Source: Leucobacter zeae
GTDB taxonomy: Bacteria; Actinomycetota; Actinomycetes; Actinomycetales; Microbacteriaceae
Direction: 5' to 3'
Assembly: GCF_016758175.1 (NCBI RefSeq)
Contig: NZ_QYAB01000004.1
Span: 186,001-250,000, forward strand
Length of the DNA stretch: 64,000 bases
A program made the position numbers and the translations under genes. The notes under the pieces were generated by a model, which was not told where the DNA came from, did not search any database, and saw nothing but the letters and a program-made list of their open reading frames with translations. This document shows, in pieces, positions 40,498-64,000 of the stretch (position 1 is the stretch's first letter; every line of letters begins with the position of its first letter).

Positions 40498-40692
40498 TCA
40501 GCGGATACGGCCGTTGAAGGTCCACTGCTCGCGGGGCACGCCCTCGACGGTCACCCACGTGTCGGGGCGCTCACCGCCGGGGGCGGTGCACATCTCGGCG
40601 ACGAGCGCGTCGATCGCGACCGCGAGCCGCTGCGCGAGCTCGGGATCCTGCTGCAGTCGGTGTTCGAACATCTTCACGGTGACGAGCGGCAT
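40498..40692 (-). CDS. 4-oxalocrotonate tautomerase-like enzyme
   Basis: A 64-residue tautomerase-superfamily subunit. Removal of Met exposes the catalytic N-terminal Pro (MPLVTVKMFEHRL). The second half ends PREQWTFNGRIR, with an Arg suited to carboxylate binding. These small enzymes form hexamers and shift keto/enol or imine/enamine double bonds. It lies 63 bp after pxpC on the same strand and may act on an unsaturated or oxo intermediate of that pathway. Confidence 0.8.
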   Translation of the reverse strand: MPLVTVKMFEHRLQQDPELAQRLAVAIDALVAEMCTAPGGERPDTWVTVEGVPREQWTFNGRIR

Positions 40693-40755
40693 GCTCGGCC
40701 CCCTCTCTTCCTCGGAATCGTGAGGTGCGCCCGCCTCGGGTGCGGGCGCACCGCG

Positions 40756-41721
40756 CTACGACCAGACTCGGGCGAGGCGCTCCCGGCGCTCGGCCCTGGC
40801 GGCGAGCGCCTCCTCCATCGTCACGGGCACGAATCGCACGCGGGTCCCGGGAGCCATGCGCGCGAACAGGTCCATGTCGGCGCTGATCACGGTGGCGGCC
40901 TGGGCGTAGCCTCCGCCCGAGACCGCGTCGCGGTGCAGCACGATCGGCTGCGTGCCTCCCGGGATCTGGATCGACCCCACGGCGTACCCGGCATCGGTGA
41001 TGTTCGAGGGATCCTGCCCCGCCCCGAACGGCTGCTCCTCGCGCTTCCACTCCGCGCCAGGACCGTCGAAGCGCAGGCCCATCCGGTCGGCGACCGGGGT
41101 GAGCGTCCACTCCGCCCCGATGAGGTTCTCGAGGCCCTGATCGGTCAGCTTGTGGTCGTAGAGACCGAGCATGACGCGCACCGAGACCTCGCGGTCGTAG
41201 CTCGGCAGCAGCTCCTCGGGCACGGCCTCGAGCCTGGGCAGCGTCTCGGGCAGCGGCGCGCCGACCGGCAGCTCATCGCCCGCCTGCACGGCGCGCCCCT
41301 CGAACCCGCCCATCTTGCCGATCGGGTAGGTCGAGCGCGAGCCCAGCACCTCGGGCACGTCGATGCCGCCGGCGACCGAGACGAAGAACTTCGTCCCGCC
41401 CTTGATCACCCCGAACGAGAGCGTGTCGCCCGCGGCGAGCGCGATGCGCGCGTTCTGCGGCGCTGGCGCGCCGTTGACGAGCACGTCGACCGGCGCCCCG
41501 GTCACCGCGACGACGACGTCCTCGGAGGTGCGCAGCTGCGGCCCCAGGTAGGTGCACTCGAGCACGGCCTCGTCGGGGGTGTTGCCGACGAGCCGGTTGC
41601 CGAGCGCCGCGGCGTACTCGTCCATCGCTCCGCCCTGGGGGATCCCGAAGCGGTAGTAGCCGAATCGCCCGCGGTCCTGCACCGTGGTCGCCAGGCCGGG
41701 GTTCACAATCTCAAGCGACAT
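40756..41721 (-). CDS. pxpC: 5-oxoprolinase subunit C / biotin-dependent carboxyltransferase family
   Basis: A 321-residue KipA/AHS2-domain protein. The N-terminus MSLEIVNPGLATTVQDRGRF and GIPQGGAMDEYAAALGNRLV are the family signature, with GGYAQAATVISADMDL later. In E. coli PxpABC it is part of ATP-dependent 5-oxoprolinase; the same fold is half of the carboxyltransferase of urea amidolyase. It overlaps pxpB by 11 nt and has GGAGG inside that gene. The presence of biotin carrier and carboxylase genes upstream favours a carboxyltransferase role. Confidence 0.9.
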   Translation of the reverse strand: MSLEIVNPGLATTVQDRGRFGYYRFGIPQGGAMDEYAAALGNRLVGNTPDEAVLECTYLGPQLRTSEDVVVAVTGAPVDVLVNGAPAPQNARIALAAGDTLSFGVIKGGTKFFVSVAGGIDVPEVLGSRSTYPIGKMGGFEGRAVQAGDELPVGAPLPETLPRLEAVPEELLPSYDREVSVRVMLGLYDHKLTDQGLENLIGAEWTLTPVADRMGLRFDGPGAEWKREEQPFGAGQDPSNITDAGYAVGSIQIPGGTQPIVLHRDAVSGGGYAQAATVISADMDLFARMAPGTRVRFVPVTMEEALAARAERRERLARVWS

Positions 41722-42622
41722 CGAGGGCCTCCAGAAGCGTGCGGTTGTATCCATCGGGGTCGGCGAGGGCGTCCGCCAGCGTGAAGGTCACATCGGCCTG
41801 CTTGTACCGGTAGGTGCCGGCCTCCACCTGGGCCTCGATCTCGCGGTACTCGGCCTCGTCCACCGGTCGGTACTTGACGATGTCGCCGGTGCGGAACAGC
41901 ACCATGAAGTCGGCGAAGTCGGCGAGCTTCTGCTCGGGGTCGAAGATCGGGGTCGGAGTGATCCCGAGCATCTGGTACCCGCCCGCGCCGCGCACCGAGT
42001 AGTGCGCGGTGAAGCAGCCGCCGTAGCCGATCGTGAGCGCCGGGGTGTCCGTGCGCGGGCTCAGGTACTTCGGCACCTCGAGCTGGCGCTCGCGCGGGGT
42101 GAGCTGGAAGAGGAACGGGAGGCCGGCGACGAAGCCGACCATCGAGACGATCCACGGGGTCTCGTGGTGCCGCCTGATGAACTCGTCGGCGGAGGCGAGC
42201 CCGTTGATCTCGGCGGCGTAGTCGAGATCGGAGCCCTCGGGCCGCTGGTGGTAGCCCTCGCGGAAGCGCGCCTCGACCTCGCTCGTGTACGGATCGTCGT
42301 ACCAGACCGGCACCTCGATGATCCGGGTCGCGAGCTCCTGCACCGTGGCCCTGCGCACCTCGTCCTCGAGCGAGCGGACCGTCTCCTCGAGCAGCGCGTG
42401 ATCGAGCGCGTCGGGATCGAAGCGGATCAGCAGCGACGCGTTCGCCGGGCAGATGTCGATGATGCCGTCGAGCGCCCGATCCTCGAGCCCGGCGGCGATG
42501 GAGTTCGAGACGAAGTTCGCCTCGAGGGACATGTCGGGGGCGATCTCGACGAGCAGGAACTCGTCGCCGCCCCAGCTGATGCGCGCCCGCTCGGGCAGCG
42601 TCGTGCTGGCGGTCGAAGTCAT
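41711..42622 (-). CDS. pxpB: 5-oxoprolinase subunit B / allophanate hydrolase subunit 1 (KipI)
   Basis: A 303-residue AHS1/KipI-domain protein. The core IIEVPVWYDDPY, GFVAGLPFLFQLTPRERQLE, PKYLSPRTDTPALTIGYGG and GAGGYQMLGITPTPIFDP are typical. The N-terminal 90 residues resemble other PxpB proteins. It forms a heteromer with PxpC. Start ATG overlaps the biotin carboxylase stop by 4 nt (ATGA), so AccC and PxpB are translationally coupled, strong evidence that they function together. Confidence 0.9.
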   Translation of the reverse strand: MTSTASTTLPERARISWGGDEFLLVEIAPDMSLEANFVSNSIAAGLEDRALDGIIDICPANASLLIRFDPDALDHALLEETVRSLEDEVRRATVQELATRIIEVPVWYDDPYTSEVEARFREGYHQRPEGSDLDYAAEINGLASADEFIRRHHETPWIVSMVGFVAGLPFLFQLTPRERQLEVPKYLSPRTDTPALTIGYGGCFTAHYSVRGAGGYQMLGITPTPIFDPEQKLADFADFMVLFRTGDIVKYRPVDEAEYREIEAQVEAGTYRYKQADVTFTLADALADPDGYNRTLLEALDVA

Positions 42623-43974
42623 GCGGATTCTCCCAAGAGGCCGGGGACCGATTCGATGTACGTGGTGTAGTGCGTCGCGTCGCGGAAGTGCTCGAGCGCG
42701 ACGAGGCGCCGCATCAGCGGCACGGTCGACTTGATGCCCGTGATCTCGGTCTCCTCGAGCGCGCGCACCGCGCGGGCGAGCGCACGGTCGCGATTCGTGT
42801 CCCACACGATGAGCTTGCCGAGCAGCGAATCGTAGAAGGGCACGACGACCTGGCCCGCGGAGAAGCCGAAGTCGGCGCGGACGCCCGGTCCGCCCGCGAG
42901 GTCGAGCGTCTCGATGCGGCCGGGGCTCGGCATGAAGCTGTTGTCGGGATCCTCCGCGTTGATGCGGAACTCGAACGCGTGCCCCTCGAGCTCGATGTCG
43001 TCCTGCGTGTACCCCAGCTTCTCCCCCGCAGCGATGCGCAGCTGTTCGCGCACGAGATCCACACCCGCGATGGCCTCGCTGATGGGGTGCTCGACCTGGA
43101 GGCGCGTGTTCATCTCGATGAACGCGATCTCCTGGCGCTCGGGGTCATAGAGGAACTCGACGGTGCCAGCCCCGACGTACGCGGACTGGCGGGCGAGTTC
43201 GACCGAGGTCTCGCGCATCCGGCGACGCAGGTCGTCGGGCAGCCCGGGCGCCGGGGCCTCCTCGACCACCTTCTGCTGGCGGCGCTGCATCGAGCAGTCG
43301 CGATCGCCGAAGTGCACCCAGGTCTCGCCGTCGCCGAGCACCTGCACCTCGACGTGCCTGGCATGAGTGACGAAGCGCTCGAAATAGACCTCGTCCGACT
43401 TGAACGCCGCGAGCGCCTCGGCCTGGGCGACCTCGACGGTGCCGCGCACCTCCTCGCGCGAATCGATGCGGCGGATGCCGCGTCCGCCGCCTCCGGCCGA
43501 TGCCTTGACGAGCAGCGGGTATCCGATCCCGTCGGCGATGGCCTCGATGTCCTGGCTCGTGTCGAGCGCGCCGTCGGTGCCGACGAGCACCGGCACTCCC
43601 GCCGCGATGGCGGCCTGGCGGGCGCGGGACTTGTCCCCCATGAGGTCGATCGAGCCCGGATCGGGACCGACCCAGGTGATGCCGGCGGCCTGCACCTTGC
43701 GCGCGAACTCCGCGTTCTCCGAGAGGAAGCCGTAGCCCGGGTGAATCGCGTCGGCACCGGTCTGCTTCGCCGCCTCGAGGATCGCGTCGTGGTTGAGATA
43801 GCTCAGACCTGCGGGGGCCGGCCCGACCACGACCGACTCGTCGGCGTACCGTTCGACGTTCGATCCCCGGTCGGCCTCGCTCACCACCGCGACCGTGGCG
43901 ATACCGAGTTCCCGGGCCGACCGGATGACCCTGATGGCGATTTCGCCGCGGTTGGCGATCAGCAGTTTTTTCAC
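42619..43974 (-). CDS. accC: Biotin carboxylase
   Basis: A 451-residue ATP-grasp enzyme that carboxylates biotin on the carrier protein using ATP and bicarbonate. KLLIANRGEIAIRVIRSARE at the N-terminus, the ATP loop KASAGGGGRGIR, HVEVQVLGDG, DCSMQRRQQKVVEEAPAP and EMNTRLQVEHPISEAI are complete. It is not fused to a carrier, and it lies inside a pxp operon rather than beside fatty-acid genes. GTG 43974 has AAGGAG seven bases upstream. Confidence 0.95.
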   Translation of the reverse strand: MKKLLIANRGEIAIRVIRSARELGIATVAVVSEADRGSNVERYADESVVVGPAPAGLSYLNHDAILEAAKQTGADAIHPGYGFLSENAEFARKVQAAGITWVGPDPGSIDLMGDKSRARQAAIAAGVPVLVGTDGALDTSQDIEAIADGIGYPLLVKASAGGGGRGIRRIDSREEVRGTVEVAQAEALAAFKSDEVYFERFVTHARHVEVQVLGDGETWVHFGDRDCSMQRRQQKVVEEAPAPGLPDDLRRRMRETSVELARQSAYVGAGTVEFLYDPERQEIAFIEMNTRLQVEHPISEAIAGVDLVREQLRIAAGEKLGYTQDDIELEGHAFEFRINAEDPDNSFMPSPGRIETLDLAGGPGVRADFGFSAGQVVVPFYDSLLGKLIVWDTNRDRALARAVRALEETEITGIKSTVPLMRRLVALEHFRDATHYTTYIESVPGLLGESA

Positions 43975-44044
43975 GTGTGGAGCTCCTTTGCTGCGTGCTC
44001 GGCCTGCGGTCGACGTCGGTCGACCGGCCGGTGCGGGGTGGTGA

Positions 44045-44281
44045 CTAGTCGATGGTGGCGATGACGTCGCCAGGGCCGACCATGCCGTAGTCCTCGATCT
44101 CGAAGGAGGCCAGTACGCCGGCCGTCTCGCTCCGCACCTCGGTGAACTGCTTCATGATCTCGATGACCCCGATGGTCTGGCCGGCTTCGACGGTGTCGCC
44201 GACCTCGACGAAGGGGGCCTTGTCCGGCGCCGGCTTGCGGTAGAAGATGCCGGGGATCGGCGCGATGATCTGTGCGGTCAT
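44045..44281 (-). CDS. accB: Biotin carboxyl carrier protein
   Basis: A 78-residue stand-alone biotinyl domain. The biotin site is EIMKQF with Lys44, in place of the common EAMKM; flanking GDTVEAGQTIGVI and GVLASFEIEDYGMVGPGD give the two-fold beta barrel. The long N-terminal region of fatty-acid AccB is absent. It lies between pxpA and accC (gaps of 49 and 70 bp) and must depend on biotin, which the bioYMN importer in the same window could supply. Confidence 0.9.
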   Translation of the reverse strand: MTAQIIAPIPGIFYRKPAPDKAPFVEVGDTVEAGQTIGVIEIMKQFTEVRSETAGVLASFEIEDYGMVGPGDVIATID

Positions 44282-44330
44282 GGAGATGTTCGCTTTCCAA
44301 ATAGTGATGGTGGGGATGATTCGGGACGGG

Positions 44331-45080
44331 TTATGCGGCGATCGCCGCGCGGACGGCCTGGGCCACCTCGACGGCGTTGGGGGTGTCGGAGTGGACGCAG
44401 ATGCTGCCGAAGGTCATCGGCAGCACGGTGCCGTCGTTCGCGAGGATCGTGCCCTCCGCCACCGCCCGCCTGGCGCGCTCCGCCGCCGCAGCGGGATCGG
44501 TCGCGTGGGGCTGCCTGAGGATGATGAGGCCGCCATCGGAGTTGTAGTCGAGATCGACGTAGAGTTCGCCGACGAAGGCGACGCCCTCGCGCTCGGCGAC
44601 GCTCTGGTGCGCCGTTCCCGCGATGCCGAACACCGGGACGCCGTAGTCCCGGGCGACGCGCACCGCACCGAGCATGAGCGCTTCGTCGCGGGCGAGCATG
44701 CCGTAGAGCGAGCCGTGGGGCTTGATGTGGCTGAGCGGCACGTCGTGCTTCGTCAGGAAGCCGGTGAGCGCTCCGACCTGGTAGCGGATGATGCTCTCGA
44801 CCTCGTCTGGGGTGAGCTTCATCTCGCGGCGGCCGAAGCCGACGAGATCGGGGAGTCCGGGGTGCGCGCCGACGCCGACGCCGTGCTGCCGCGCCAGGGC
44901 GACCGTCGCGTCCATCGTCGCGGGATCACCGGAGTGGAACCCGCACGCGACGTTCGCGACGTCGATGATCTCCATGAGGGCCGCGTCGTTGCCGAAGGTG
45001 TGGAGCCCGAAGGCCTCGCCCATATCGGAGTTGACCGAGATCGAGTCTGCTGAGTATCCATCACTGCGTTGTGCTGTCAT
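44331..45080 (-). CDS. pxpA: 5-oxoprolinase subunit A (LamB/YcsF family)
   Basis: A 249-residue protein. The metal-site blocks are NSDMGEAFG, NVACGFHSGDP, GAHPGLPDLVGFGRR and IKPHGSLYG. LamB/YcsF proteins are the hydrolase part of bacterial 5-oxoprolinase, opening the pyroglutamate ring after activation. First gene of the pxpA-accB-accC-pxpB-pxpC unit, divergent from a PucR gene. ATG 45080 has no clear ribosome site; a TAGCTT -10 seven bases upstream suggests a leaderless message. Confidence 0.9.
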   Translation of the reverse strand: MTAQRSDGYSADSISVNSDMGEAFGLHTFGNDAALMEIIDVANVACGFHSGDPATMDATVALARQHGVGVGAHPGLPDLVGFGRREMKLTPDEVESIIRYQVGALTGFLTKHDVPLSHIKPHGSLYGMLARDEALMLGAVRVARDYGVPVFGIAGTAHQSVAEREGVAFVGELYVDLDYNSDGGLIILRQPHATDPAAAAERARRAVAEGTILANDGTVLPMTFGSICVHSDTPNAVEVAQAVRAAIAA

Positions 45081-45087
45081 GGAGACC

Positions 45088-45093
45088 AAGCTA
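45088..45093 (-). promoter_or_regulatory. -10 element of the pxpA operon
   Basis: TAGCTT on the minus strand with a 7-nt gap to the pxpA ATG. Regulatory dyads lie 34-61 bp further upstream. Confidence 0.4.
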
Positions 45094-45126
45094 CGCGGGG
45101 CCTTCGGCGAGCGTTATTATGCAAGT

Positions 45127-45154
45127 GCAAGAATCTTGCTTCACAAATTGTGCA
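45127..45154. promoter_or_regulatory. Putative PucR operator region
   Basis: GCAAGAATCTTGC (13-bp dyad, 45127-45139) is followed by CACAAATTGTG (45142-45152) and the 8-mer ATTGTGCA (45147-45154). The same 8-mer occurs as an inverted pair upstream of the NCS1 permease. It lies between divergent pxpA and pucR starts. Confidence 0.5.
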
Positions 45155-45169
45155 ACTGCGAAAGTGGCG

Positions 45170-46639
45170 ATGATGCGCGTTTCGGACCTCCTCTCGGAGC
45201 ACTCGCTCCAACTCCGACTCGAGACCCCCTCCGGCTTGAAGCGGCTGCAGCGGGAGATCGCGCGATGCGCTCCCGCGGAGCACCTCGACCCGACGCCCTA
45301 CCTCGAGCCGAACGTGCTCCTGCTCACCTCGGGCATCGGCATGAACTTCACCGAACCGAGCATCTGGGACGGGTACGTCGAGCGGCTGACCCGCGTGCCC
45401 GTCTCCGCGCTCGCGTTCGCGGTGGGGACCGCGCACCGCTCGCTGCCGGCCGGCCTCATCGAGGCCTGCGTGCGGCACGACCTGCCGCTGCTCGAAGTCC
45501 CGACGACCGTGCCGCTGTACAAGATCAACCAGCACGTCGAGTACATGCTGCAGGCCGAGCGCAACGCGCTCACCGATCGCGGCTGGCGCCTCGCCGACGA
45601 ATGCGCGCGCCTCGCGAATCAGGGCGCCGAGATCTCGACTCTGCTCGCCGCGATCACCGCCGTGCTCGAGGTCCCCATCGCCGTCTACGACGCGTTCGAT
45701 TCGCTCATCGCCCAGTACCCGAGCACCGCGACGTGGCGCACGGGGGCCGCCCGCGCCGGGCAGCCGGACGTCTTCAACATGACACTGCCCATGGGCCTCG
45801 CGAAACCGTGCCAGCTCGCCGTGCGGCTGCACCTGCCGTCCGCCGACATCGAGTCCCTGCTGACCCCCGTCTCCTCGATCCTCGCGCTGCGCCTCAACAG
45901 CTCGGTCGCGGTCGACGCGAACAGCCACCAGGACATGCTGCGCTTCGTGAACCGCTGCGTGTCGTGGTCGGAGTCGACGCGCGGCGACGTGGCGAACGCG
46001 TTCCAGGAGCTCGGGCTCAGCCGGTCGGCCGAGACCTCGCTGCTCGTCGCCGACCTCAGCGGCGAGCACGCCGCCGCCGCGTGGAAGCTGCGCATCGCGC
46101 TCCACGACGCGTTCCACGACGTGCGCCTCGCCGAGATCGACGAACGGCTCATCGCGCTCATGCAGTTCCCCCGCGAGGGGGTCTCGGAGGCCGAGGCGCA
46201 CCTGCTCGGCGTCGAGCCGGATCTGCCGCTCGTCTTCCGTGAGCCCACGCGCACGATCGACGAACTGCGCATCTCGCTCGTGCACGCGCTCGACCTGGTG
46301 CGCCACACGGCGGAGCCGGTCGTCGCGCCGCTGCTGGGCCTGAGCGCGGTCGTCGCTGCTGCGGCGGGTCGCGGCGCCCGGGAGTCGGCGAAGCGCTTCC
46401 TCGCGCCGCTCATGGAGCACGACGAGCAGCGCACCACGGAGCTGCTGCCGACGCTGCGCACCTGGCTGCGCAACGACGCCCAGCCCTCGCGCACCTGCGA
46501 GGAGCTGTTCATCCACCGCAACTCGCTGAGCTACCGGCTGCGGCGCATCGAACAGGTGCTCGGGCTCTCGCTCGACACGCTCGACGGGAAGGCGACCTGC
46601 CTCATGGCGCTGCGCCTCGTCGAGCTGGAGCCGTACTGA
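45170..46639 (+). CDS. PucR family transcriptional regulator
   Basis: A 489-residue regulator. The N-terminal PucR domain (MRVSDLLSEHSLQLR, TSGIGMNFTE and DLPLLEVPTTVPLYKINQHV) binds an effector; the C-terminal helix-turn-helix is TCEELFIHRNSLSYRLRRIE. It lies between the pxp operon and the NCS1/hyu genes and probably controls one or both. ATG 45170 or 45173 are equally possible starts; the ribosome site is weak. Confidence 0.9.
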   Translation: MMRVSDLLSEHSLQLRLETPSGLKRLQREIARCAPAEHLDPTPYLEPNVLLLTSGIGMNFTEPSIWDGYVERLTRVPVSALAFAVGTAHRSLPAGLIEACVRHDLPLLEVPTTVPLYKINQHVEYMLQAERNALTDRGWRLADECARLANQGAEISTLLAAITAVLEVPIAVYDAFDSLIAQYPSTATWRTGAARAGQPDVFNMTLPMGLAKPCQLAVRLHLPSADIESLLTPVSSILALRLNSSVAVDANSHQDMLRFVNRCVSWSESTRGDVANAFQELGLSRSAETSLLVADLSGEHAAAAWKLRIALHDAFHDVRLAEIDERLIALMQFPREGVSEAEAHLLGVEPDLPLVFREPTRTIDELRISLVHALDLVRHTAEPVVAPLLGLSAVVAAAAGRGARESAKRFLAPLMEHDEQRTTELLPTLRTWLRNDAQPSRTCEELFIHRNSLSYRLRRIEQVLGLSLDTLDGKATCLMALRLVELEPY

Positions 46640-46728
46640 TCCGGCCCCCTTCCGCCGTCATGCTGCGCGACGCCCCCCTCCCCGCCGTCCGCGCGACGCC
46701 CCCTTCCCCGTCATGCTGCGCGACGAAG

Positions 46729-46762
46729 GAGTCGCAGGATCCAACCGTGGATCCTGCGACTC
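46729..46762. terminator. Family D hairpin, copy 2
   Basis: GAGTCGCAGGATCCA and TGGATCCTGCGACTC form a perfect 15-bp stem with a 4-nt loop ACCG, between convergent pucR and NCS1 permease genes. The surrounding gap has three further CGTCATGCTGCG-like or GATGACGG fragments, remnants of the same family as 24116-24156. Confidence 0.75.
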
Positions 46763-46832
46763 GCTCCGCTCCCGCAGGACGACGGAGGGGAACCCAGGGG
46801 GAGCGGGAAACCTCCCGCGGGATGACGGGACG

Positions 46833-48224
46833 CTACGGGACGACCGTGATGAGACCCGTGCGGCTCGTGGGGTGCGCCTTCCAGAGGATCGCGTACACGA
46901 CTGCTGCGGAGACCGCGGTGAGGATCGGACCCCACGTCGAGCCGATGCCGGCGAGGTCGGGGTTGATCGTGCCGAACTGCAGCATCACGAGCCCGATGAC
47001 CGTGGCCACGATCCACGAGATCAGGCCGTTGCTGTTGAAAGCCCGGTAGTGCTGGTCCCCGATCGCGGAGTGCTCCTGATTGCGGCCGCCGTCGAGCAGC
47101 ACGTGGGTCAGCGCGATCGCGACCCACGCCGTGACGAGCACGCCCTGCCAGGCGAGGGCGAGCAACAGGTACTGCACGATCGGCAGCAGCATGAGCAGGT
47201 AGATGATGACCGAAGAGATCAGCACCCACGCGAGGTTGGGCAGCCGGAGTTTCAGCACGCGCTCCCCGAACGCCTTGAGGTTCGCCGCACCGAGGTAGTA
47301 GTTCGCCGTGTTGATGCGCGTCTGCGAGGCGATGATGACGATCAGGCCGAAGATCCCCATGAGACTCACGATGCCGCCGGCGACGCCCGTCTCGGACACC
47401 TCCATGCCGGGGATCGTGAAGGTGAGGAAGATGCCGACGAAGGCCGAGAAGCCGTAGGCGAGCACGTAGAAGAGGGGGCCGAAGGTGAAGTTCTGGTGGA
47501 ACTTCACGTCCTTGCGCTTGCCGAGCGCGGCGTAGTCCATCGTGAACATCATCATGATCCAGATGCCCATGTAGCCGGCGAAGGTCGCGAGCCAGCCCGG
47601 GCCGCCGAGCGCGAACGGCAGCTCGACCTCGGGCGCGTGGGTGAGCCAGGCGTCGCCGAAGCCGTAGACCGCGCCCGCCCAGATCACGGCGGCGATGAGG
47701 CCGAAGAAGTAGAGCGGCATGAGCCAGCCGTTGAGCTTGTCGAGGAAGCGCCGCACCCCGCCGATGATGAGCGGTGTGGAGTAGATCACGACGATGAGGC
47801 TCCACATCCACATCTCGCCGCCGAAGGCCGCCATGAACGCGTAGGCCACGATCGAGCCCTCGAAGACGGCGTAGTAGATCGCGACGAGCGCGAAGATGAT
47901 GGTCGCGATCGAGGAGCCGGCGGTGCCGAGGATCGTGCGCGAGAACTGCGCGACGGTGGTGCGGTTGTTGATCGCGTACTTCGACAGCACTGCGTTGATG
48001 GCGCCGTAGGCGATGATGGTCAGCACGATGCCGATGATGGCGTTCAGCGTGCCGTAGGCGGCCGCCATGGCCGCGCCGATGTAGACGAAGAAGAATGCGC
48101 TCGCCACGCCGTACCAGGCCAGCGCGAGCGAGCCGCGCTTCATCTGGTCGTCATCGCTGCCCTCGCGGGCCAGAGTGTCGGTCGCTTCGACGTCGTCGTT
48201 GCTTCCGGTGAGATTGAGACTCAC
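46833..48224 (-). CDS. NCS1 family purine/cytosine/hydantoin-type permease
   Basis: A 463-residue permease with about 12 helices. LAWYGVASAFFFVYIGAAMA, IGTLNAIIG-like YGTLNAIIGIVLTII, and NRTTVAQFSRTILG match the NCS1 (CodB/PucI/Mhp1) superfamily. The likely cargo is a ring amide such as a hydantoin, uracil-like or related compound handled by HyuAB or Pxp. GTG 48224 was chosen over ATG 48239 because GGAGG lies eight bases before it. It follows hyuB after a 205-bp gap that has its own operator-like repeats. Confidence 0.85.
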   Translation of the reverse strand: MSLNLTGSNDDVEATDTLAREGSDDDQMKRGSLALAWYGVASAFFFVYIGAAMAAAYGTLNAIIGIVLTIIAYGAINAVLSKYAINNRTTVAQFSRTILGTAGSSIATIIFALVAIYYAVFEGSIVAYAFMAAFGGEMWMWSLIVVIYSTPLIIGGVRRFLDKLNGWLMPLYFFGLIAAVIWAGAVYGFGDAWLTHAPEVELPFALGGPGWLATFAGYMGIWIMMMFTMDYAALGKRKDVKFHQNFTFGPLFYVLAYGFSAFVGIFLTFTIPGMEVSETGVAGGIVSLMGIFGLIVIIASQTRINTANYYLGAANLKAFGERVLKLRLPNLAWVLISSVIIYLLMLLPIVQYLLLALAWQGVLVTAWVAIALTHVLLDGGRNQEHSAIGDQHYRAFNSNGLISWIVATVIGLVMLQFGTINPDLAGIGSTWGPILTAVSAAVVYAILWKAHPTSRTGLITVVP

Positions 48225-48293
48225 GGTCGATACCTCCATTGGTATTCGGATTGCGTTGCCATCTCATTGTGAGGATCGGGATCGCGCAGAAGT

Positions 48294-55997: not shown

Positions 55998-56003
55998 GCC
56001 GCA

Positions 56004-56815: not shown

Positions 56816-56932
56816 CCGGCGAACGCCGATCCGCGGAGGTCCGCCGCATCGCGGATCGCGGACGCGAACCGCTCCGCAGCGCGGCAGGTCTCCGCGCAGC
56901 GGTGCCGAACAGGCGGACTGCGCGGCGGAGGG

Positions 56933-57604
56933 TCAGGCCGCGGCCCGCAGCAGTTCGGCGATCTCGCCGAAGCCGAGCTTCTCGGCGTGCTGCAGCGGCG
57001 AGACGCCCCACTGGTCGACCATGCGGGGGTCGGCCCCCGCCGCGAGCAGGATCCGCACGATCTCCTGCTGCTCCGGCCCGCCGTCGCGGAGGATGATCGC
57101 CTCGAGCAGCGGGGTCCATCCGCAGAGGTTGGTGTAGTTGACGTTCATGTCGGGCAGGGAGGCGAGGTACCGCGTCAGCTCGACATAGCCCTTCTCGGCC
57201 GCGGGGTGGATGCCGACGCCGTCGAAGCGAGTCCTGCGGTCGAGGTCGGCGCCGGCGGCGACCGCGCGGCGAGCGACCTCGAGGTCGTCGTTGATGCAGG
57301 CCCACAGCAGCGGGTTGAGCTTGATGCGATTCTGGGCGTCGACATCGGCGCCGGCCTCGACGAGCGCGTCGAACGCCTCGAAGTTGCGGGCGCGGGCGGC
57401 GATGAGCACCGCAGACGAGCGCTGCTGCTCGGTCGTGGCGGTCGCGTTCGCGTCGGCGCCTGCGGCGAGCGCGGCGCGCACCTCGTCGCCGGTCGCGGTC
57501 GCGACGAGCTCGGGCCATCGGACATCGGCCGAGACGGATTCGGGTGCGACGGATTCGGGTGCGACGGATTCGGGTGCGGCGGTTTCAGTCGGCCTTGCGG
57601 TCAT
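56933..57604 (-). CDS. Ankyrin-repeat protein coupled to the DUF2877/carbamate kinase genes
   Basis: A 223-residue protein with about five ankyrin repeats from residue 60 onward: AVLIAARARNFEAFDALVEA, LLWACINDDLEVARRAVAAG, GIHPAAEKGYVELTRYLASL, TPLLEAIILRDGG and SPLQHAEKLGFGEIAELLRA. No enzyme motif is seen, so a protein-binding role is likely. The N-terminus has a threefold 15-bp repeat (APESV). ATG 57604 overlaps the DUF2877 stop by 4 nt, so it is translated with that gene; this suggests a scaffold or regulatory partner for the carbamoyltransferase system. Confidence 0.85.
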   Translation of the reverse strand: MTARPTETAAPESVAPESVAPESVSADVRWPELVATATGDEVRAALAAGADANATATTEQQRSSAVLIAARARNFEAFDALVEAGADVDAQNRIKLNPLLWACINDDLEVARRAVAAGADLDRRTRFDGVGIHPAAEKGYVELTRYLASLPDMNVNYTNLCGWTPLLEAIILRDGGPEQQEIVRILLAAGADPRMVDQWGVSPLQHAEKLGFGEIAELLRAAA

Positions 57605-59088
57605 GCGTGGTCCTCTTCGGAGTCGGGGGCCGGAGTACCGGCCCGAGGTCGTGCGGAGCAATCCGCGGGGTCTGGGCTGCTGGGGTGCGCGGCACTGAAG
57701 CCGGCGACGCCGAGGTCCGACACGTCGACGCCCGATCGGTCGGCGGTGGACGCGCCGGGACCCGACGCCCCGGGTCTCGGAGAGGCGGGCATCGACGCGC
57801 CGGGACCCGGCCGCGCCTGCGAGCGGGAGGCCCGCGGCCCGGGGTCGCGCGCCGCGGACAGCGCGACGTGGGCGTCGACGAGTCCGTGCAGCGCGTCGCT
57901 CCCCGATGTCGACCCGATGCGGGCGGTCGCGGCGAACGCCGCGGTCGCTGCGCCGAGGTCTCCCCCGGCGACCGCCCGTGCGGCGTCGGCGAGGTCGACC
58001 TGGAAGGCTCCGTCGGCCGCCGCGAGCAGGAAGTGACGGCTCACCGGCGTCGTCCGCTCATCCACCGGAACGGACGCCTGCGCCGCGCGAGCGGCTTCGC
58101 CGTCCGTGCGCGGCGCCAGGACACGGGTTCCCGCACCGAGCGCAGCGCGCACGGCGTCCGCCACGGCAGCCCGGGCGACCGCGGCCCCGCTCCCGGGGTG
58201 CGCCGAGAGCAGGCACAGCGCTCCGACGAGGTAGTCGTCGCCGGAGGGCGTCAGGCCGACCCCGAGCCCGATGAGGTCATGGACCGCAGCGTCGAGCGCG
58301 CGATCGGCGGCCTCGACCGAACTCGCCGATGCCGATCCCCCGCCCTGCGCTGCCGAGACCCGCAGCGCGGCCTCGAGCGCGGCGCGGAAGCGGCCGCGCG
58401 CCGCCTCGAGCGCCGTCCGGACCGCGCGTGCGAACGCGGGCTCCTCCCCGAGCGGCACGAAGGACCCGGGGCGCGCCACGGCGGCGAGCAGCACGGAGAA
58501 CCGAGGATCGTCCGGACCCGCGGGACCCGACACGACAGTTCCGGCCGCACCACCGGCGGGATCCGCACCACCGGCGGGATCCGCACCACCGGCGGGATCC
58601 GCACCACCGGCGGGATCCGCTGCACCGATGGAACTCGCGGAGCCGGGGCCGGCACCGGCACCGGCACCGCACGGTACCGGTCGCACGGTGCAGTCCCGGA
58701 CGCGCGCCCCGGTCAGCTCGATCCGGATCTCGCCGAGGGTGAGTATCCCATCGGCGATCCGGGCGGTATCGCCGGCGCGCACGTCCGCGAAGCCCGAGCG
58801 CGCGGTGAGCAGCGCGCCCGGTGCAGGCCGCCCGCCCGAGGCGACGAGCGAGAACCTCCGCCAGGACGATGCGGCGTCACCCGGAACGACGAGATTGACC
58901 GCGTGCGGGAACGCGGACTCGACCCGCGCGAGCAGCGGCGCCCCCGCCGCTCCGCGCAGCAGGGACGTCCACATCCCGTCCATCCCGGTGGCCGGTGCAC
59001 CGACGCCCGAGGCACCGGAGGCGTTGACACCGGCATCGACGCAGGAGGCCCCGGCACCGATCGGCCGGGCACGGTCGATCGCGATCAT
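57601..59088 (-). CDS. DUF2877 protein, YlbF/AllH-like carbamoyltransferase component
   Basis: A 495-residue protein. The DUF2877 signature GLGVGLTPSGDDYLVGALCL is at about residues 275-294, and the beta-rich front region (HAVNLVVPGDAASSWRRFSL) matches the family. E. coli YlbF, with FdrA and YlbE, has been reported to form oxamate carbamoyltransferase. Compared with that protein this one is enlarged by a DPAGGA repeat linker (58547-58618) and a Pro/Ala/Gly-rich C-terminal tail of about 80 residues. The start overlaps the carbamate kinase stop by 4 nt; a later Met near residue 36 is an alternative. Confidence 0.82.
   Translation of the reverse strand: MIAIDRARPIGAGASCVDAGVNASGASGVGAPATGMDGMWTSLLRGAAGAPLLARVESAFPHAVNLVVPGDAASSWRRFSLVASGGRPAPGALLTARSGFADVRAGDTARIADGILTLGEIRIELTGARVRDCTVRPVPCGAGAGAGPGSASSIGAADPAGGADPAGGADPAGGADPAGGAAGTVVSGPAGPDDPRFSVLLAAVARPGSFVPLGEEPAFARAVRTALEAARGRFRAALEAALRVSAAQGGGSASASSVEAADRALDAAVHDLIGLGVGLTPSGDDYLVGALCLLSAHPGSGAAVARAAVADAVRAALGAGTRVLAPRTDGEAARAAQASVPVDERTTPVSRHFLLAAADGAFQVDLADAARAVAGGDLGAATAAFAATARIGSTSGSDALHGLVDAHVALSAARDPGPRASRSQARPGPGASMPASPRPGASGPGASTADRSGVDVSDLGVAGFSAAHPSSPDPADCSARPRAGTPAPDSEEDHA
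58547..58618. repeat. 18-bp in-frame tandem repeat, four copies
   Basis: Four exact copies of GCACCACCGGCGGGATCC inside the DUF2877 gene encode DPAGGA repeats in a linker. Copy number can change without a frameshift. Confidence 0.85.
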
Positions 59089-60107
59089 GCGGTCGCCCGA
59101 CCCGCCCGCCCGGGCCCCTCGCGCTCCGCACGCCCGCCGCGCTCGCCGCTGCCGTCGCTGCCGTCGCTGCCGTCGCGATCGACGTACTCGACGCCGGCGG
59201 CGAGCTCGGGCACGATCTCCGTGCCGATGCGCCGCGCGAGCAGGTCTTCGAGGCGGTCGAGCGGACCGATGAGCGCGCGGCCGCCGGCTCGGGCGACGCG
59301 GATCGCGGCGTCGATCTTCGGCCGCATCGACCCCTCCTCGAACTCCATCGCGGCGACGGCGTCGGCCGATGCGCGCAGGATCCCGCGCTGCTCGGGCGTG
59401 CCCCAGTGCTCGATCACGAAGTCGCCGTCGGTGAGCATGATCAGGGTGTCGGCGCCGATGTCGGCGGCGAGCGCCGCGCTCGCGAGATCCTTGTCGACCA
59501 CTGCCTGCACGCCCACCTGCCTGCCCGAGGACTCCAGCTTCACCGGCACGCCGCCCCCGCCGACGCAGACCACGAGGCTACCGGCTTCGAGCAGGCGGTT
59601 CACGAGCGGCGCCTGCACGATCGACTGCGGCACGGGAGACGGCACGACCCTGCGGAAGAGGTCGCCGTCCTTCGCGATGGTCCAGCGGTACTCGGCGGCG
59701 GCTTCGGCGGCGTCGCTCGCGGAGTACTGCGGCCCGATCAGCTTCGTGGGGCGTTCGAACGCCGGGTCGCTCTCGTCGACGACCGTGGTGGTGAGGATCG
59801 CCGTCACCTCGCGCGCGCCGCCGAGCGCGTTCGCGAGCTCCTGCTGCACGACGTAGCCGATCATGCCCTGGGTCTCCGCCCCGAGGATGTCGAGGGGGTA
59901 GGCGGCGACATCCTGGTATGCGAGATTCTGCAGCGCGAGCAGGCCGACCTGGGGGCCGTTGCCGTGCGTGATCACGACCTCGTTGCCGCTCGAGAAGTCC
60001 GCGAGCGCCGCGCACGCCTCCCGCACGTTCTTGCGCAGGTAGTCCGCGGTCATGGGCTCGCCACGCTTGGCGAGGGCGTTTCCTCCGAGTGCGACGACGG
60101 CGCGCAT
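59085..60107 (-). CDS. arcC: Carbamate kinase
   Basis: A 340-residue amino-acid-kinase-fold enzyme: carbamoyl phosphate + ADP to carbamate + ATP. VVALGGNALAKRGEP, ITHGNGPQVGLLALQ, VVCVGGGGVPV and AVVDKDLASAALAADI are the family motifs. The final 25 residues are a Gly/Asp/Ser/Arg-rich extension with a 9-bp DNA repeat. ATG 60107 has GGAGGAG. It is not linked to arginine deiminase genes but to DUF2877 and fdrA, so it probably harvests ATP from carbamoyl phosphate made by the carbamoyltransferase. Confidence 0.93.
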   Translation of the reverse strand: MRAVVALGGNALAKRGEPMTADYLRKNVREACAALADFSSGNEVVITHGNGPQVGLLALQNLAYQDVAAYPLDILGAETQGMIGYVVQQELANALGGAREVTAILTTTVVDESDPAFERPTKLIGPQYSASDAAEAAAEYRWTIAKDGDLFRRVVPSPVPQSIVQAPLVNRLLEAGSLVVCVGGGGVPVKLESSGRQVGVQAVVDKDLASAALAADIGADTLIMLTDGDFVIEHWGTPEQRGILRASADAVAAMEFEEGSMRPKIDAAIRVARAGGRALIGPLDRLEDLLARRIGTEIVPELAAGVEYVDRDGSDGSDGSGERGGRAEREGPGRAGRATA

Positions 60108-60180
60108 GGCTCTCCTCCGGTGGACGGGCGATGGGCGCGCGGTTCGCGTCGCCTCGATGTGGCCACCGTAACACGCTTTC

Positions 60181-60252
60181 GTATACCAACTGCTCCATCT
60201 TTGGTGAGAATCGCGCCGCTGAGTTCGATTCTTCGCTCGTTCTGGCATACCA
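60181..60252. promoter_or_regulatory. Repeated GTATACCA-like boxes in the arcC/fdrA divergent region
   Basis: GTATACCA at 60181-60188 and GCATACCA at 60245-60252, same orientation, in the 200-bp gap. The second includes TACCAT, a possible -10 for fdrA; the inverse of the first gives TATAC near the arcC start. Candidate operators, regulator unknown. Confidence 0.35.
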
Positions 60253-60307
60253 TGTTGGAGAGAAGATGCGCCGCGGCTCGATTTCGGCGGCGTCGGAGAG
60301 GACCCGG

Positions 60308-61843
60308 ATGAGCAGGCACATCGACGTCAGGCAGAACACCTACCTCGACTCCGTCTCGCTCATGTCGATGAGCACCCGGGCGAACGCCGTCGACGGCGTC
60401 ACGCAGGCCCTGCTCGGCATGGCGACCCCGATGAACCGGGAGGTGCTCGCGAACCTCGGGATCGAGGATCCCGCGCTCGACGCGGCGCGCCCGAGCGACC
60501 TCATGATCGTGATCGACGCGGCCGACGATCTGCTCGACGCCGCGATCACGGCAGTCGACGACATCCTCGCGCGCAAGCAGCGGGCCGGAGCCGAGCGCGG
60601 CGAGACCCGCCACCGCACGCTCGACGCCGCGTTCGCGGAGGCCCCGGATACGAACCTCGTACTCATCTCGGTCAACGGCGCGTTCGCCGCACGGGAGGCG
60701 CGCACGGCGCTCGACGCCGGCAAGCACGTCATGATCTTCTCGGACAACGTCCCCGTCGAGGACGAGCTCGCGCTCAAGCGCCTCGCGCACGAACGCGGAC
60801 TCATCGTGATGGGGCCCGACTGCGGGACCGCGATCATCAACGGCACGGCGCTCGCATTCGCCAACGCCGTGCGGCGCGGCCCGATCGGGATCGTCGGCGC
60901 CTCGGGCACGGGCAGCCAGGAGGTCTCGGTGCGGATCCACGACTTCGGCGGCGGCGTCTCGCAGCTGATCGGCACCGGCGGCCGCGACCTCTCGACCGAC
61001 ATCGGGGGCATCTCGATGATCGACGGGATCCGCGCCCTCGACGCGGACCCGGGGACCGAGGTCATCGTCGTCGTCTCGAAGCCGCCTGCCGAGGAGGTCG
61101 CGGAGCGCGTGCTCGCCGTCGCGGGCGCCGCCTCGAAGCCCGTCTTCGTCTCGTTCCTCGGGTCGGATCGCACCGACTCCGGATACGCCAACGTCACGCT
61201 GGTGCGGGGCACCAAGCCGCTCGCCCTCTCCGCGGTCGTCGCTTCGGGCGTCGACGAGTCGACCCTCGACACGCACCCGCTCAACCTCCCGCTGATCGAG
61301 GAGGTGCGCGCCCGGCTCGCACCCGAGCAGCGGTACATCCGCGGGCTGTTCTGCGGCGGCACCCTCTGCGACGAGGCGATGTTCGCGGCGCTCGCGAAAC
61401 TCGACGGCGTCTACTCGAACATCCAGAAGGACCCATCGAAGCTCCTCGGGGCCGCGGACGCGTCGCGCGAGCACACCTTCCTCGACATGGGCGACGACGA
61501 CTTCACGAACGGGCGCCCGCACCCGATGATCGATCCGTCGCTGCGTCTCGCGCGGATCGTCGAGGAGGCTCGGGATCCGGAGGTCGCCGTGCTCGCCCTC
61601 GACTTCGTGCTCGGCTACGGTGCGCACGAGGATCCGGTCGGGGTCACCCTGCCCGCCATCGCCGAGGCCCGCGCCCTCGCGGCCGCGCGCGGCAGGCACC
61701 TCGAGATCCTGGGCTACGTGCTCGGCACGGAGCTCGACACCCCGAGCCTCGCCGCGCAGGTCGCGCAGCTCGAGGCCGCCGGGGTCACGATCGCCTCCTC
61801 CTCCACCAACCTGGGCCTGCTGGCCCGCGAGTTCGTCGCCTGA
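60308..61843 (+). CDS. fdrA: FdrA family protein (acyl-CoA synthetase-like carbamoyltransferase subunit)
   Basis: A 511-residue protein related to the succinyl-CoA synthetase alpha chain. Blocks include NTYLDSVSLMSMSTRANAVD, IVMGPDCGTAIINGTALAFA, GIVGASGTGSQEVSVRIHDF and FCGGTLCDEAMFAAL. E. coli FdrA is reported as one of three subunits of oxamate carbamoyltransferase. GAGAGGA precedes ATG 60308. The DUF1116 gene follows 25 bp downstream; carbamate kinase and DUF2877 are divergent. Confidence 0.9.
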   Translation: MSRHIDVRQNTYLDSVSLMSMSTRANAVDGVTQALLGMATPMNREVLANLGIEDPALDAARPSDLMIVIDAADDLLDAAITAVDDILARKQRAGAERGETRHRTLDAAFAEAPDTNLVLISVNGAFAAREARTALDAGKHVMIFSDNVPVEDELALKRLAHERGLIVMGPDCGTAIINGTALAFANAVRRGPIGIVGASGTGSQEVSVRIHDFGGGVSQLIGTGGRDLSTDIGGISMIDGIRALDADPGTEVIVVVSKPPAEEVAERVLAVAGAASKPVFVSFLGSDRTDSGYANVTLVRGTKPLALSAVVASGVDESTLDTHPLNLPLIEEVRARLAPEQRYIRGLFCGGTLCDEAMFAALAKLDGVYSNIQKDPSKLLGAADASREHTFLDMGDDDFTNGRPHPMIDPSLRLARIVEEARDPEVAVLALDFVLGYGAHEDPVGVTLPAIAEARALAAARGRHLEILGYVLGTELDTPSLAAQVAQLEAAGVTIASSSTNLGLLAREFVA

Positions 61844-61868
61844 ACCGCGACGGCAAGGAGCATCATCG

Positions 61869-63290
61869 ATGAGCATCAACGACCTGTTCACCAGCGCCCT
61901 CAAGCCGGTGAACCTCGGCCTCGACATGTTCGCCGACGACCTGCGCGCGCAGGGCGTCGAGCCAGTCCTCATGGACTGGACCCCGCCGGGCGGCGGCGAC
62001 CCCGAGATGATCTCGGCGCTCGGCCGCCTCGAGCGGCCCGGGGTCGCCGAGAAGATCGACGCGGCCAACCAGGTCGCGCTCGAGCGCATCCTCTCGTCCC
62101 AGCCGTTCCTCGAGGGTTTCGGACAGGCGATCGACACCGTGCCGGGCATGACCGCGAAGACGATCCTGCACGCCGGCCCCCCGATCGAGTTCACCCGCAT
62201 GTCGGGCCCGATGCAGGGCGCTGTCACGGGCGCGCTCGTCTTCGAGGGCCTCGCGGGGGACCTCGACGAGGCCTTCGAGCTCGCCGCATCGGGCGAGATC
62301 GACTTCTCGCCCTGCCACGAGCACCAGTCGGTCGGCTCGATGGCGGGCGTCACGAGCGCGAGCATGTGGGTGCACCGGGTCGTGAACCGCACGCACGGCA
62401 ACACCGCGTACACGAACCTCTCCGAGCAGCTGTCGAAGATCCTCCGGTTCGGCGCGAACGATCAGTCGGTCATCGACCGCCTGAACTGGATGCGCGACGT
62501 GTTCGGCCCCGTGCTCGCGGGCGCGATGGAGCTGAACGCCGACGGCATCGACCTGCGTCTCATGCTGTCCCAGGCGCTGCACATGGGCGACGAGGCGCAC
62601 AACCGCAATGTGGCAGGCACCACCCTGCTCATTCAGGCGCTCGCCCCCTACATCCTCGAGACCGACTTCACCACGAAGGAGAAGCGCGAGGTCTTCGACT
62701 TCGTCGCATCGTCCGACTACTTCTCCGGCCCGACCTGGATGGTCGCGGCGAAGGCCTCGATGGACGCCGCGAACGGCATCGAGCACTCGACCGTGGTCAC
62801 GACGATGGCGCGCAACGGCGTGGACTTCGGGATCCGGGTCTCGGGCACCGGCGACCAGTGGTTCACCGGGCCGGCGCAGCAGGTGGTCGGTCCGATGTTC
62901 GCCGGCTACACCCCCGCGGACTCAGGTCTCGACATGGGCGACTCCGCGATCACCGAGACCTTCGGCATCGGCGGCTTCGCGATGGCCGCGGCCCCCGCGA
63001 TCGTCGCCCTCGTCGGCGGCACGGTCGAGGAGGCCATGGGCTACTCGCGCACCATGAACGCGATCACCACGGGCAACAACCCGAACATCACGATCCCCGC
63101 GCTCGACTTCATGGGCGTCCCTTCGGGCATCGACGTGCGCAAGGTCATGGAGACCGGCATCCTGCCGATCATCAACACCGCGATCGCGCACAAGGATCCG
63201 GGAATCGGCATGATCGGCGCCGGCATCACCCACCCGCCCGTCGGGGCCTTCCGCGACGCGCTCACCGCGCTCGCGGATCGGATCGCATAG
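61869..63290 (+). CDS. DUF1116 protein, YlbE/YahG-like carbamoyltransferase component
   Basis: A 473-residue protein of the YlbE/YahG family. LMDWTPPGGGDPEMISALGR, the histidine-rich FSPCHEHQSVGSMAGVTSAS, QALHMGDEAHNRNVAGT and NGVDFGIRVSGTGDQWFTGP are the conserved blocks, several with likely catalytic His/Asp. With FdrA and the DUF2877 protein it would make the carbamoyltransferase. AAGGAG precedes ATG 61869. In a unit with fdrA and the permease. Confidence 0.9.
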   Translation: MSINDLFTSALKPVNLGLDMFADDLRAQGVEPVLMDWTPPGGGDPEMISALGRLERPGVAEKIDAANQVALERILSSQPFLEGFGQAIDTVPGMTAKTILHAGPPIEFTRMSGPMQGAVTGALVFEGLAGDLDEAFELAASGEIDFSPCHEHQSVGSMAGVTSASMWVHRVVNRTHGNTAYTNLSEQLSKILRFGANDQSVIDRLNWMRDVFGPVLAGAMELNADGIDLRLMLSQALHMGDEAHNRNVAGTTLLIQALAPYILETDFTTKEKREVFDFVASSDYFSGPTWMVAAKASMDAANGIEHSTVVTTMARNGVDFGIRVSGTGDQWFTGPAQQVVGPMFAGYTPADSGLDMGDSAITETFGIGGFAMAAAPAIVALVGGTVEEAMGYSRTMNAITTGNNPNITIPALDFMGVPSGIDVRKVMETGILPIINTAIAHKDPGIGMIGAGITHPPVGAFRDALTALADRIA

Positions 63291-63387
63291 GCCGCGCCGC
63301 CGCACCTCCCCGTCATTCCGCGCCAGCGGGGCGGCTCGCTGGAACCGCCCCGTCCGCCCCCTCCCGCATCACCGAAGAAGGTCCCCC

Positions 63388-64000
63388 ATGCCCGCAGCAA
63401 CCACCGAAGACGCGCCGACAGGCGCCCCAGCCGCATCCGATTCCGCCGAGCGGCCCCGCACGCTGAAGCGGCAGCTCGGCCTCCCGTCGCTCGTAGCCTA
63501 CGGCCTGACGTCGATGGGCGTGCTCTCCGTCGTCTCGGTCTACGGCCCCGGCACCCAGATCAGCGACGGGCACCTGCCCGCGGCCTACGTCCTCGCGGTC
63601 GTCATCATGCTCTTCACGGCGCACAGCTACGGACGCATGGCCGTGCACGTCCCCATCACGGGCGGCGCGTACGCCTACGCGACCCGTGGCTTCGGGCAGT
63701 TCACGGGCTTCCTCACCGGCTGGGTGATGATGCTCGACTACCTCTTCCTGCCGATGGTCAACTTCCTGTTGTTCGGCCTGTACTTCAACAGCCTGTTCAC
63801 CGGGGTCGCCCCGTGGGCGGGCACCCTCGTCTGCCTGCTGATCGTCGCGGTGCTCAGCGTCATCGGCGTGGGCTGGATCAAGCGCATGAACACGGTGGTC
63901 GTCCTCGCGTCGGTGCTGGTGATCCTGGCGTTCCTCGTGCTCGCCGTGCTCAACGCGCCCGGGCTGAGCCTCGAAGCCGTCATGCGCCCGCTCTCCGTCG
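63388..64000 (+). CDS. APC family permease (partial)
   Basis: The first 204 codons; the gene leaves the right edge. After a hydrophilic lead of about 27 residues the APC core begins, LGLPSLVAYGLTSMGVLSVV, followed by ITGGAYAYATRGFGQFTGFL, typical of amino-acid/polyamine permeases. Six hydrophobic segments are present. It probably imports the substrate or exports an amine product of the FdrA/DUF1116 system. GAAGG precedes ATG 63388; the gap from the DUF1116 gene is 97 bp and contains a CGTCATTCCGCG fragment like family D. Confidence 0.88.
   Translation, partial: MPAATTEDAPTGAPAASDSAERPRTLKRQLGLPSLVAYGLTSMGVLSVVSVYGPGTQISDGHLPAAYVLAVVIMLFTAHSYGRMAVHVPITGGAYAYATRGFGQFTGFLTGWVMMLDYLFLPMVNFLLFGLYFNSLFTGVAPWAGTLVCLLIVAVLSVIGVGWIKRMNTVVVLASVLVILAFLVLAVLNAPGLSLEAVMRPLSV

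Follow-up and report, generated by a model that had tools for sequence, protein, structure and literature searches.

Two linked candidate lactam-opening systems, hyuAB and a biotin-type pxp cassette, beside a separate allFGHK unit in Leucobacter zeae

Genes at the locus

The window analyzed here, a stretch of 64,000 nucleotides from the 3.47 Mb genome of Leucobacter zeae, carries three gene blocks between position 40498 and its end: a pxp cassette with accB and accC (block 1), hyuAB with a permease (block 2) and the genes allF, allG, allH and allK (block 3). Gene families were assigned with Pfam and NCBIfam and further compared with PDB sequences, and this confirmed that all three blocks are present where the initial annotation had placed them. 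They also lie within about 23 kb, as proposed, but not as one run: because about 3 kb of cupin, thioesterase and other open reading frames (ORFs) separates the second pucR gene from block 3, the region consists of two parts and is not a single series of catabolic genes. The first part holds two operons, each with its own divergent PucR-type regulator:

40498-40692, minus strand: 64-residue 4-oxalocrotonate-tautomerase-like protein, end of the pxp operon
40756-41721, minus strand: PxpC-like carboxyltransferase (CT_A_B; PF02626, 288.5 bits)
41711-42622, minus strand: PxpB-like carboxyltransferase (CT_C_D; PF02682, 145.6 bits; PDB matches)
42619-43974, minus strand: AccC-type biotin carboxylase (Biotin_carb_N, CPSase_L_D2, Biotin_carb_C; NF006367, 605.4 bits, cut-off 597)
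44045-44281, minus strand: AccB-type biotin carrier of 78 residues (NF005457, 105.8 bits, cut-off 87)
44331-45080, minus strand: PxpA (LamB/YcsF; PF03746, 285.7 bits; NF003814, 259.9 bits, cut-off 226)
45170-46639, plus strand: PucR regulator 1, divergent from pxpA (PF07905, PF13556)
46833-48239, minus strand: permease with an NCS1-like predicted fold (AlphaFold2 model, mean predicted local distance difference test score 77)
48430-50421, minus strand: HyuB, hydantoinase B/CapB-type subunit (PF02538, 505.5 bits; CapB 6yra_B, 271 bits)
50418-52499, minus strand: HyuA, hydantoinase A/CapA-type ATPase subunit (PF01968, PF05378, PF19278)
52634-53851, plus strand: PucR-type regulator 2 (HTH_30), divergent from hyuA (PF13556; GGDEF_2 below cut-off)

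PxpABC is reported to be the 5-oxoprolinase of Corynebacterium glutamicum, where it is encoded by the operon pxpTABC with a GntR repressor (PMC13274462). The window operon likewise joins PxpA to carboxyltransferase-like PxpB and PxpC, whereas it adds accB, accC and the terminal tautomerase-like gene, is accompanied by a PucR instead of a GntR regulator, and shares its genome with a further pxpA and fused pxpBC elsewhere. PxpA passes the cut-off of the subfamily model for 5-oxoprolinase subunit PxpA. The names pxpB and pxpC given in the initial annotation hold for the CT_C_D and CT_A_B families but not for the 5-oxoprolinase NCBIfam equivalogs, whose cut-offs are not reached (87.2 of 145.55 bits for PxpB and 195.9 of 500 bits for PxpC). 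PxpC matches urea carboxylase (3va7, 184 bits) better than it does E. coli YbgK/PxpC (5dud, 133 bits), and AccB carries an EIMKQ motif, including the lysine, that is identical in 13 aligned rows. The cassette thus has what characterizes a urea-carboxylase-like biotin-dependent carboxylase, namely a biotin carboxylase, a carrier with the MK motif and both carboxyltransferase halves, and these are all four functional parts of 3va7. In contrast to 3va7, the parts are four separate genes (at most 500.7 bits for one part, against the single chain of more than 1303.85 bits that defines urea carboxylase TIGR02712), and their partner is PxpA instead of an allophanate hydrolase. On the best reading of these sequences the cassette would be a split, urea-carboxylase-like variant of PxpABC.

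The other pxpA, followed by the fused pxpBC, lies on contig C1 of the same genome and has no accB or accC match (E ≤ 1e-3) within 20 kb. The window cassette is therefore probably not the sole 5-oxoprolinase of the genome, and it may have another substrate. No paper was found that describes an accBC-type Pxp system in its title or the opening of its abstract, a weak negative because the search covered openly licensed literature only. In the small protein at the end of the operon Pro2 is invariant in 7 aligned rows, and its profile matches 4-oxalocrotonate tautomerase 35wa over residues 2-63 (E = 3.3e-5); the Pfam Tautomerase match (E = 0.12) is below cut-off, and assignment as a tautomerase by fold was rejected because Foldseek gave no match at E ≤ 0.001.

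HyuA and HyuB belong to the superfamily of ATP-dependent lactamases and hydantoinases, as judged by both domains and by the CapB metal ligands Asp41, His99, Asp102 and His124, all conserved in the alignment of HyuB (ligand and pocket residues are those given in PMC8453981). The closest named matches of HyuA are from Leucobacter. The caprolactamase CapAB and the valerolactam hydrolase OplBA are of this same two-subunit family (PMC8453981, PMC11879879); CapA and CapB are the best NCBIfam matches of HyuA and HyuB, and HyuB leans slightly to CapB by sequence. Unlike CapAB and OplBA, the window pair is accompanied by a pxp cassette, and it differs from CapB in most of the hydrophobic pocket and in the vicinal cysteines. 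Caprolactam as the specific substrate was rejected, since the CapB pocket is mostly not conserved. A Hyu-type pair that opens a five-ring cyclic amide or imide and feeds succinate semialdehyde is also reported for N-methylpyrrolidone degradation by nmpABCDEF (PMC12866759, PMC6987047); the partners there are an amino acid oxidase and a semialdehyde dehydrogenase, and the likeness to the window is by description only.

The permease had been called NCS1 at first, which stands for its predicted fold but not for its sequence, for which Pfam (E ≤ 1), NCBIfam (E ≤ 0.001) and the PDB sequences gave no match. With Foldseek the model ranked CodB and Mhp1 in places 1-3, with template modelling scores, by target length, of 0.74 for CodB and 0.66 for Mhp1; SGLT, NRAMP and YcsG (rank 15), which share the same broad fold, came further down. 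We therefore describe it as NCS1-like by predicted fold only. Both regulators are PucR-type as stated in the initial annotation, the PucR N-terminal domain being found only in the first. The window holds a third PucR regulator upstream (27037-28701) and, also upstream, a succinate-semialdehyde-dehydrogenase-like gene (24195-25583; 463 of 730 bits).

Linkage of hyuAB and pxp, and the separate allFGHK unit

To follow these genes in other organisms we used 54 loci fetched from genome records with HyuA, with flanks of up to 10 kb in which block 3 is visible only partly, and samples of 150 genomes of the family and 396 of the phylum (L numbers denote fetched loci and G numbers genomes of the sampled sets). 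Because the simple gene caller used overlooks genes where the G+C content is lower, neighbours were counted with tblastn; the linkage and neighbour figures are raw counts over loci that are not phylogenetically independent.

Of the 54 HyuA loci, 53 show hyuB, 52 pucR2 and 43 the permease, and 42 have the full set with hyuA. In 13 of the loci (L009, L011, L014-L017, L020-L023, L029, L037 and L055) the series pucR1-pxpA-accB-accC-pxpB-pxpC adjoins hyuA with pxpA at no more than 10 kb, a lower bound because several contigs end early. Both pxpB and pxpC were seen in 12 of these 13, L020 being cut by its contig end, and the tautomerase-like gene in 10. Among the 150 family genomes a HyuA of at least 76% identity was found in four (G000, G061, G020 and G078), and pxpA lies a few kb from it in all but G020, where it is 40 kb away among other genes. 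The family sample gave 85 LamB/PxpA matches, of which 25 were read: two from G000, one each from G061, G078 and G020, and 20 mainly lower-scoring ones.

Six of the 396 phylum genomes have a HyuA of at least 59% identity. In four of them (G000, G214, G344 and G385) pxpA also stands next to a short accB; of the other two, G367 gave no accB match, and G258 gave matches that were left unread. In G214, of family f18, pxpB-pxpC-pxpA-accB lies about 6 kb from hyuAB (61 and 71% identity); the distance is about 18 kb in G385, of the same family, and the two are far apart in G344. Among 30 loci fetched around short accB genes, and apart from the locus of the window itself, pxpA is in reach in 18 loci from family f18 and in one from family f42. 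These observations indicate that blocks 1 and 2 form a genuine linked unit and that the pairing recurs in a distant actinobacterial family. A lack of co-occurrence in other genomes, which the initial annotation had named as grounds for refuting its proposal, is largely seen for block 3 and not for blocks 1 and 2.

The features beyond the two operons, with the unit that forms the second part of the region, are as follows:

39788-40360: window gene beyond the cassette, whose homologue served as a marker in relatives
53852-56932: cupin, thioesterase and other ORFs, between pucR2 and block 3
56933-57661, minus strand: ankyrin-repeat protein (ankyrin-protein models)
57601-59088, minus strand: AllH (DUF2877), start uncertain (PF11392, 'Oxamate carbamoyltransferase subunit AllH', 67.6 bits)
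59085-60107, minus strand: AllK, carbamate kinase (NF009008, 404.8 bits, cut-off 361)
60308-61843, plus strand: AllF (FdrA; NF004760, 469.9 bits, cut-off 433)
61869-63290, plus strand: AllG (DUF1116; PF06545, 'Oxamate carbamoyltransferase subunit AllG', 297.8 bits)
63388-64000, plus strand: APC permease, continuing to contig position 250803 (PF00324/PF13520 on L005:1388-2803)

By its sequence matches block 3 corresponds to a system already known, allFGHK, with all four genes together: the genes formerly called fdrA, DUF1116, DUF2877 and carbamate kinase were described in 2024 as allF, allG, allH and allK, an oxamate carbamoyltransferase with its kinase (PMC11326118). All four genes of E. coli AllFGHK are in the window, AllG and AllH being so named by Pfam; in contrast to E. 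coli, they stand in two divergent pairs with an ankyrin gene, and the window genome has no AllD match, so that the E. coli-type supply of oxalurate is missing. A search of six genomes, among them the five with AllG, gave no AllD; its control matched 4 of 14 named genomes, in one of them above cut-off. An E. coli-type supply of block 3 from allantoin through oxalurate was therefore rejected, despite an allantoinase above cut-off in the window genome; such an allantoinase is also present in G014, which has no AllG match.

AllG occurs in 5 of the 150 family genomes, and one of them, G024, has neither a LamB/PxpA match nor a HyuA match at E ≤ 1e-50. The all unit was seen in two of the 54 HyuA loci (L009 and L055), and L057 has only an allK-like gene of 42% identity. 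Seven Leucobacter-type loci (L008, L010, L011, L017, L029, L037 and L056) have an amidohydrolase close to the thioesterase and no all gene in the interval, and L008 has the APC permease and the GntR regulator at this site. Because of this distribution, of these sites and of the L008 permease, allFGHK with the ankyrin gene is a separately inherited unit, and the APC permease, which had been counted as part of block 3, is not its own.

Ankyrin-repeat homologues stand beside all genes in L009, L055 and L066. Just past the window end (L005, 4148-12101), block 3 is followed by an amidohydrolase of the chlorohydrolase/deaminase type, an ABC transporter of the oligopeptide type and another amidohydrolase; in other Leucobacter loci the first amidohydrolase is found close to the thioesterase. 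The intergenic stretch 55016-55446, between the halves of the region, holds three near-palindromic repeats, each about 50-80 nucleotides long, and a pattern tried for them recovered two of the three and nothing else in the window at up to 3 mismatches.

Candidate substrates and alternative explanations

Genes of γ-aminobutyrate (GABA) and glutarate metabolism are neighbours of hyuAB in some relatives. Within 10 kb of hyuA, at least one such neighbour is present in 15 of the 54 loci: glutaryl-CoA dehydrogenase in 7, a family III CoA-transferase in 7, GabT (at least 50% identity) in 6, a PuuD-like gene (at least 70%) in 4, three of these with a glutamine-synthetase-like gene, and a putrescine-oxidase-like gene paired with aminobutyraldehyde dehydrogenase in 3. 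The putrescine-oxidase label was read from the sequence, which had no NCBIfam match. The best PDB matches of the dehydrogenase are glutaryl-CoA dehydrogenases (3sf6, 537 bits), and among NCBIfam models the CoA-transferase is matched best, though below cut-off, by succinate-glutarate CoA-transferase. G214 has, one after another, the pxp cassette, a molybdenum-hydroxylase large subunit, two further genes, glutaryl-CoA dehydrogenase, CoA-transferase, hyuA and hyuB, and in G344 the CoA-transferase directly follows hyuB. The window genome has homologues of this dehydrogenase and CoA-transferase (61 and 55%) paired at C1:862433-864788. Near the accBC-type pxp genes, a GabT of 43-44% identity occurs in 4 of 9 loci of family f18. 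Such neighbours would fit 5-aminovalerate or GABA as products and, by extension, 2-piperidone or 2-pyrrolidinone as the lactam opened. The fungal genes lamA and lamB, which serve the use of 2-pyrrolidinone, were considered as a precedent.

Of the 9 loci of family f18 that were read more widely, 8 (L101-L104 and L107-L110) have a molybdenum large subunit of the CO-dehydrogenase/xanthine-dehydrogenase type next to their accBC-type pxp genes; one of the eight is named by NCBIfam, and the hydroxylase might turn an N-heterocycle into a lactam.

The explanation that we favour, at a probability of about 0.47 and thus slightly below even odds, is that 40498-53851 encodes two linked openers of lactams to omega-amino acids and that the allFGHK unit at 56933-63290 is separate from them. 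We infer the substrates, the N-carboxylation and the assignment of enzymes to substrates as follows. The NCS1-fold permease would import a small cyclic amide. In HyuAB, taken as CapAB/OplBA-like, HyuA would activate the ring with ATP and HyuB hydrolyze it at the metal site to the omega-amino acid. In the other system AccC would load CO2 onto biotin-AccB, PxpB and PxpC would transfer it to the amide nitrogen of the ring, after which PxpA would hydrolyze the activated, N-carboxylated ring. The substrates would most likely be lactams of the 2-piperidone or 2-pyrrolidinone type, and the 5-aminovalerate or GABA formed would go to glutaryl-CoA or succinate. The allFGHK proteins would transfer a carbamoyl group to phosphate and yield ATP through carbamate kinase, outside the lactam route. 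It is a more doubtful proposal that the accBC-type cassette is, in particular, a biotin-dependent lactamase that N-carboxylates a plain lactam for PxpA, beside the unrelated ATP-dependent lactamase HyuAB, so that one locus feeds lactams to actinobacterial GABA and glutarate pathways. No paper in the openly licensed literature was found that joins at least three of 2-piperidone, hydantoinase, 5-aminovalerate, glutaryl-CoA dehydrogenase and lactam hydrolase.

A number of observations weigh against this lactam explanation. On the side of the enzymes, HyuA scores higher against N-methylhydantoinase (PDB 7hk5, 501 bits) than against CapA (394 bits), most caprolactam-pocket residues of CapB and its vicinal cysteine pair differ in HyuB, the caprolactamase equivalog cut-off of 1000 bits per subunit is not reached (527.2 and 328.7 bits), and neither are the 5-oxoprolinase B/C equivalog cut-offs by PxpB and PxpC. 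On the side of the neighbours, 39 of the 54 loci are without a GABA/glutarate-type gene at the identity levels used for counting, although four (L028, L041, L044 and L051) have weaker matches of 31-40%; such genes were found by tblastn within 10 kb of hyuAB in none of the Leucobacter loci, and the dehydrogenase/CoA-transferase pair is also present in G014, which lacks a close HyuA. The two systems are also found apart. In L007, L008, L010 and L050 the homologue of the 39788-40360 gene directly follows the permease and the site of the cassette is empty, and G141, of the same genus as G078, has retained the pxp cassette although it lacks a close hyuAB, so that joint action of the two systems does not seem to be strictly required. 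In G385 hydantoinase-, isochorismatase- and amidase-type genes, identified by their opening residues, lie between hyu and pxp. Finally, a biotin carboxylase gene adjoins 5-oxoprolinase-type pxp genes in L115, L120 and L121; biotin may thus serve such systems too, and accBC by itself is no mark of another substrate. Because of these three loci we lowered our estimate for lactams and raised that for 5-oxoproline.

Beside the pxp cassette of G141 there is a 117-residue permease remnant (L131, 12009-12362). At 7833-13435 of L120 (in G014) an NRAMP-like gene (by reading) is followed in turn by pxpA, the fused pxpBC and a gene in which biotin carboxylase and carrier are fused, so that biotin components are combined with pxp genes here in a second manner. 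PxpA relatives of 50-57% identity stand without a pxpB, pxpC or accBC match in L127, L132 and L133, and the one in L132 adjoins, by opening residues, an amidase-like gene and an ABC transporter.

Three other explanations were weighed against this one. HyuAB might open a hydantoin or a cyclic imide to a carbamoyl acid, with AccBC-PxpBC and PxpA degrading the freed ureido group. The PDB match of HyuA to N-methylhydantoinase, the likeness of the permease fold to CodB and the hydantoin transporter Mhp1, the closeness of PxpC to urea carboxylase, the PucR type of the regulators and the hydantoinase- and isochorismatase-type genes of G385 would all suit such a use of ring ureides, as would the Hyu-type NmpAB of Paracoccus, which is reported to open an oxidized pyrrolidone (PMC12866759). 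The scanned window genes of the two cassettes, however, include no carbamoylase, and lactams agree better with the genes for glutaryl-CoA dehydrogenase, CoA-transferase and GabT that several loci have next to hyuAB. To our knowledge PxpA-type enzymes are known only for 5-oxoproline, which we also counted against ureides, and we regard this explanation as unlikely.

Both systems could instead be 5-oxoprolinases, one of each known kind, with pyroglutamate as carbon and nitrogen source. The subfamily score of PxpA, the biotin carboxylase genes next to 5-oxoprolinase-type pxp genes in three other family loci, the match of the permease model to the YcsG model at rank 15 and the role of PxpABC in C. 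glutamicum (PMC13274462) point this way; set against them are the scores of PxpB and PxpC, far below the equivalog cut-offs, the additional pxpA and fused pxpBC of the genome, which have no accBC match, and the GntR repressor of pxpTABC where the window has PucR-type regulators. This, too, seems improbable to us. The initial annotation had proposed a single route that would take one ring ureide or lactam through all three of pxp, hyu and allFGHK, with recovery of ATP by carbamate kinase. The three blocks do stand within 23 kb here and close together in the Leucobacter loci L009 and L055. Such a route is nevertheless contradicted by the distribution of AllG and by the related sites free of all genes: allFGHK occurs without the other two systems in G024, pxp and hyu occur without allFGHK in G061 and G078, of the 11 HyuA loci with pxp whose visible flank towards block 3 reaches 9.7 kb or more, 9 lack allFGHK, and seven related loci have the site without it. 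A plain lactam, moreover, gives no carbamoyl group. We rejected the three-block route on this distribution and these sites and hold it to be very improbable.

Implications

The cluster is partly genuine and partly a matter of chance neighbours, and what merits testing in it are the two linked ring openers, one of which is of the biotin type. The allFGHK genomes with no AllD match raise the question of which carbamoyl compound is used there. Enzymes that open lactams matter for the breakdown of nylon monomers and solvents and for lactam production strains. If the Pxp cassette is indeed a lactam carboxylase, the annotation of such genes as 5-oxoprolinase or acetyl-CoA carboxylase would need correcting, and this activity would explain the biotin carboxylase genes that stand beside pxp in several actinobacterial loci.

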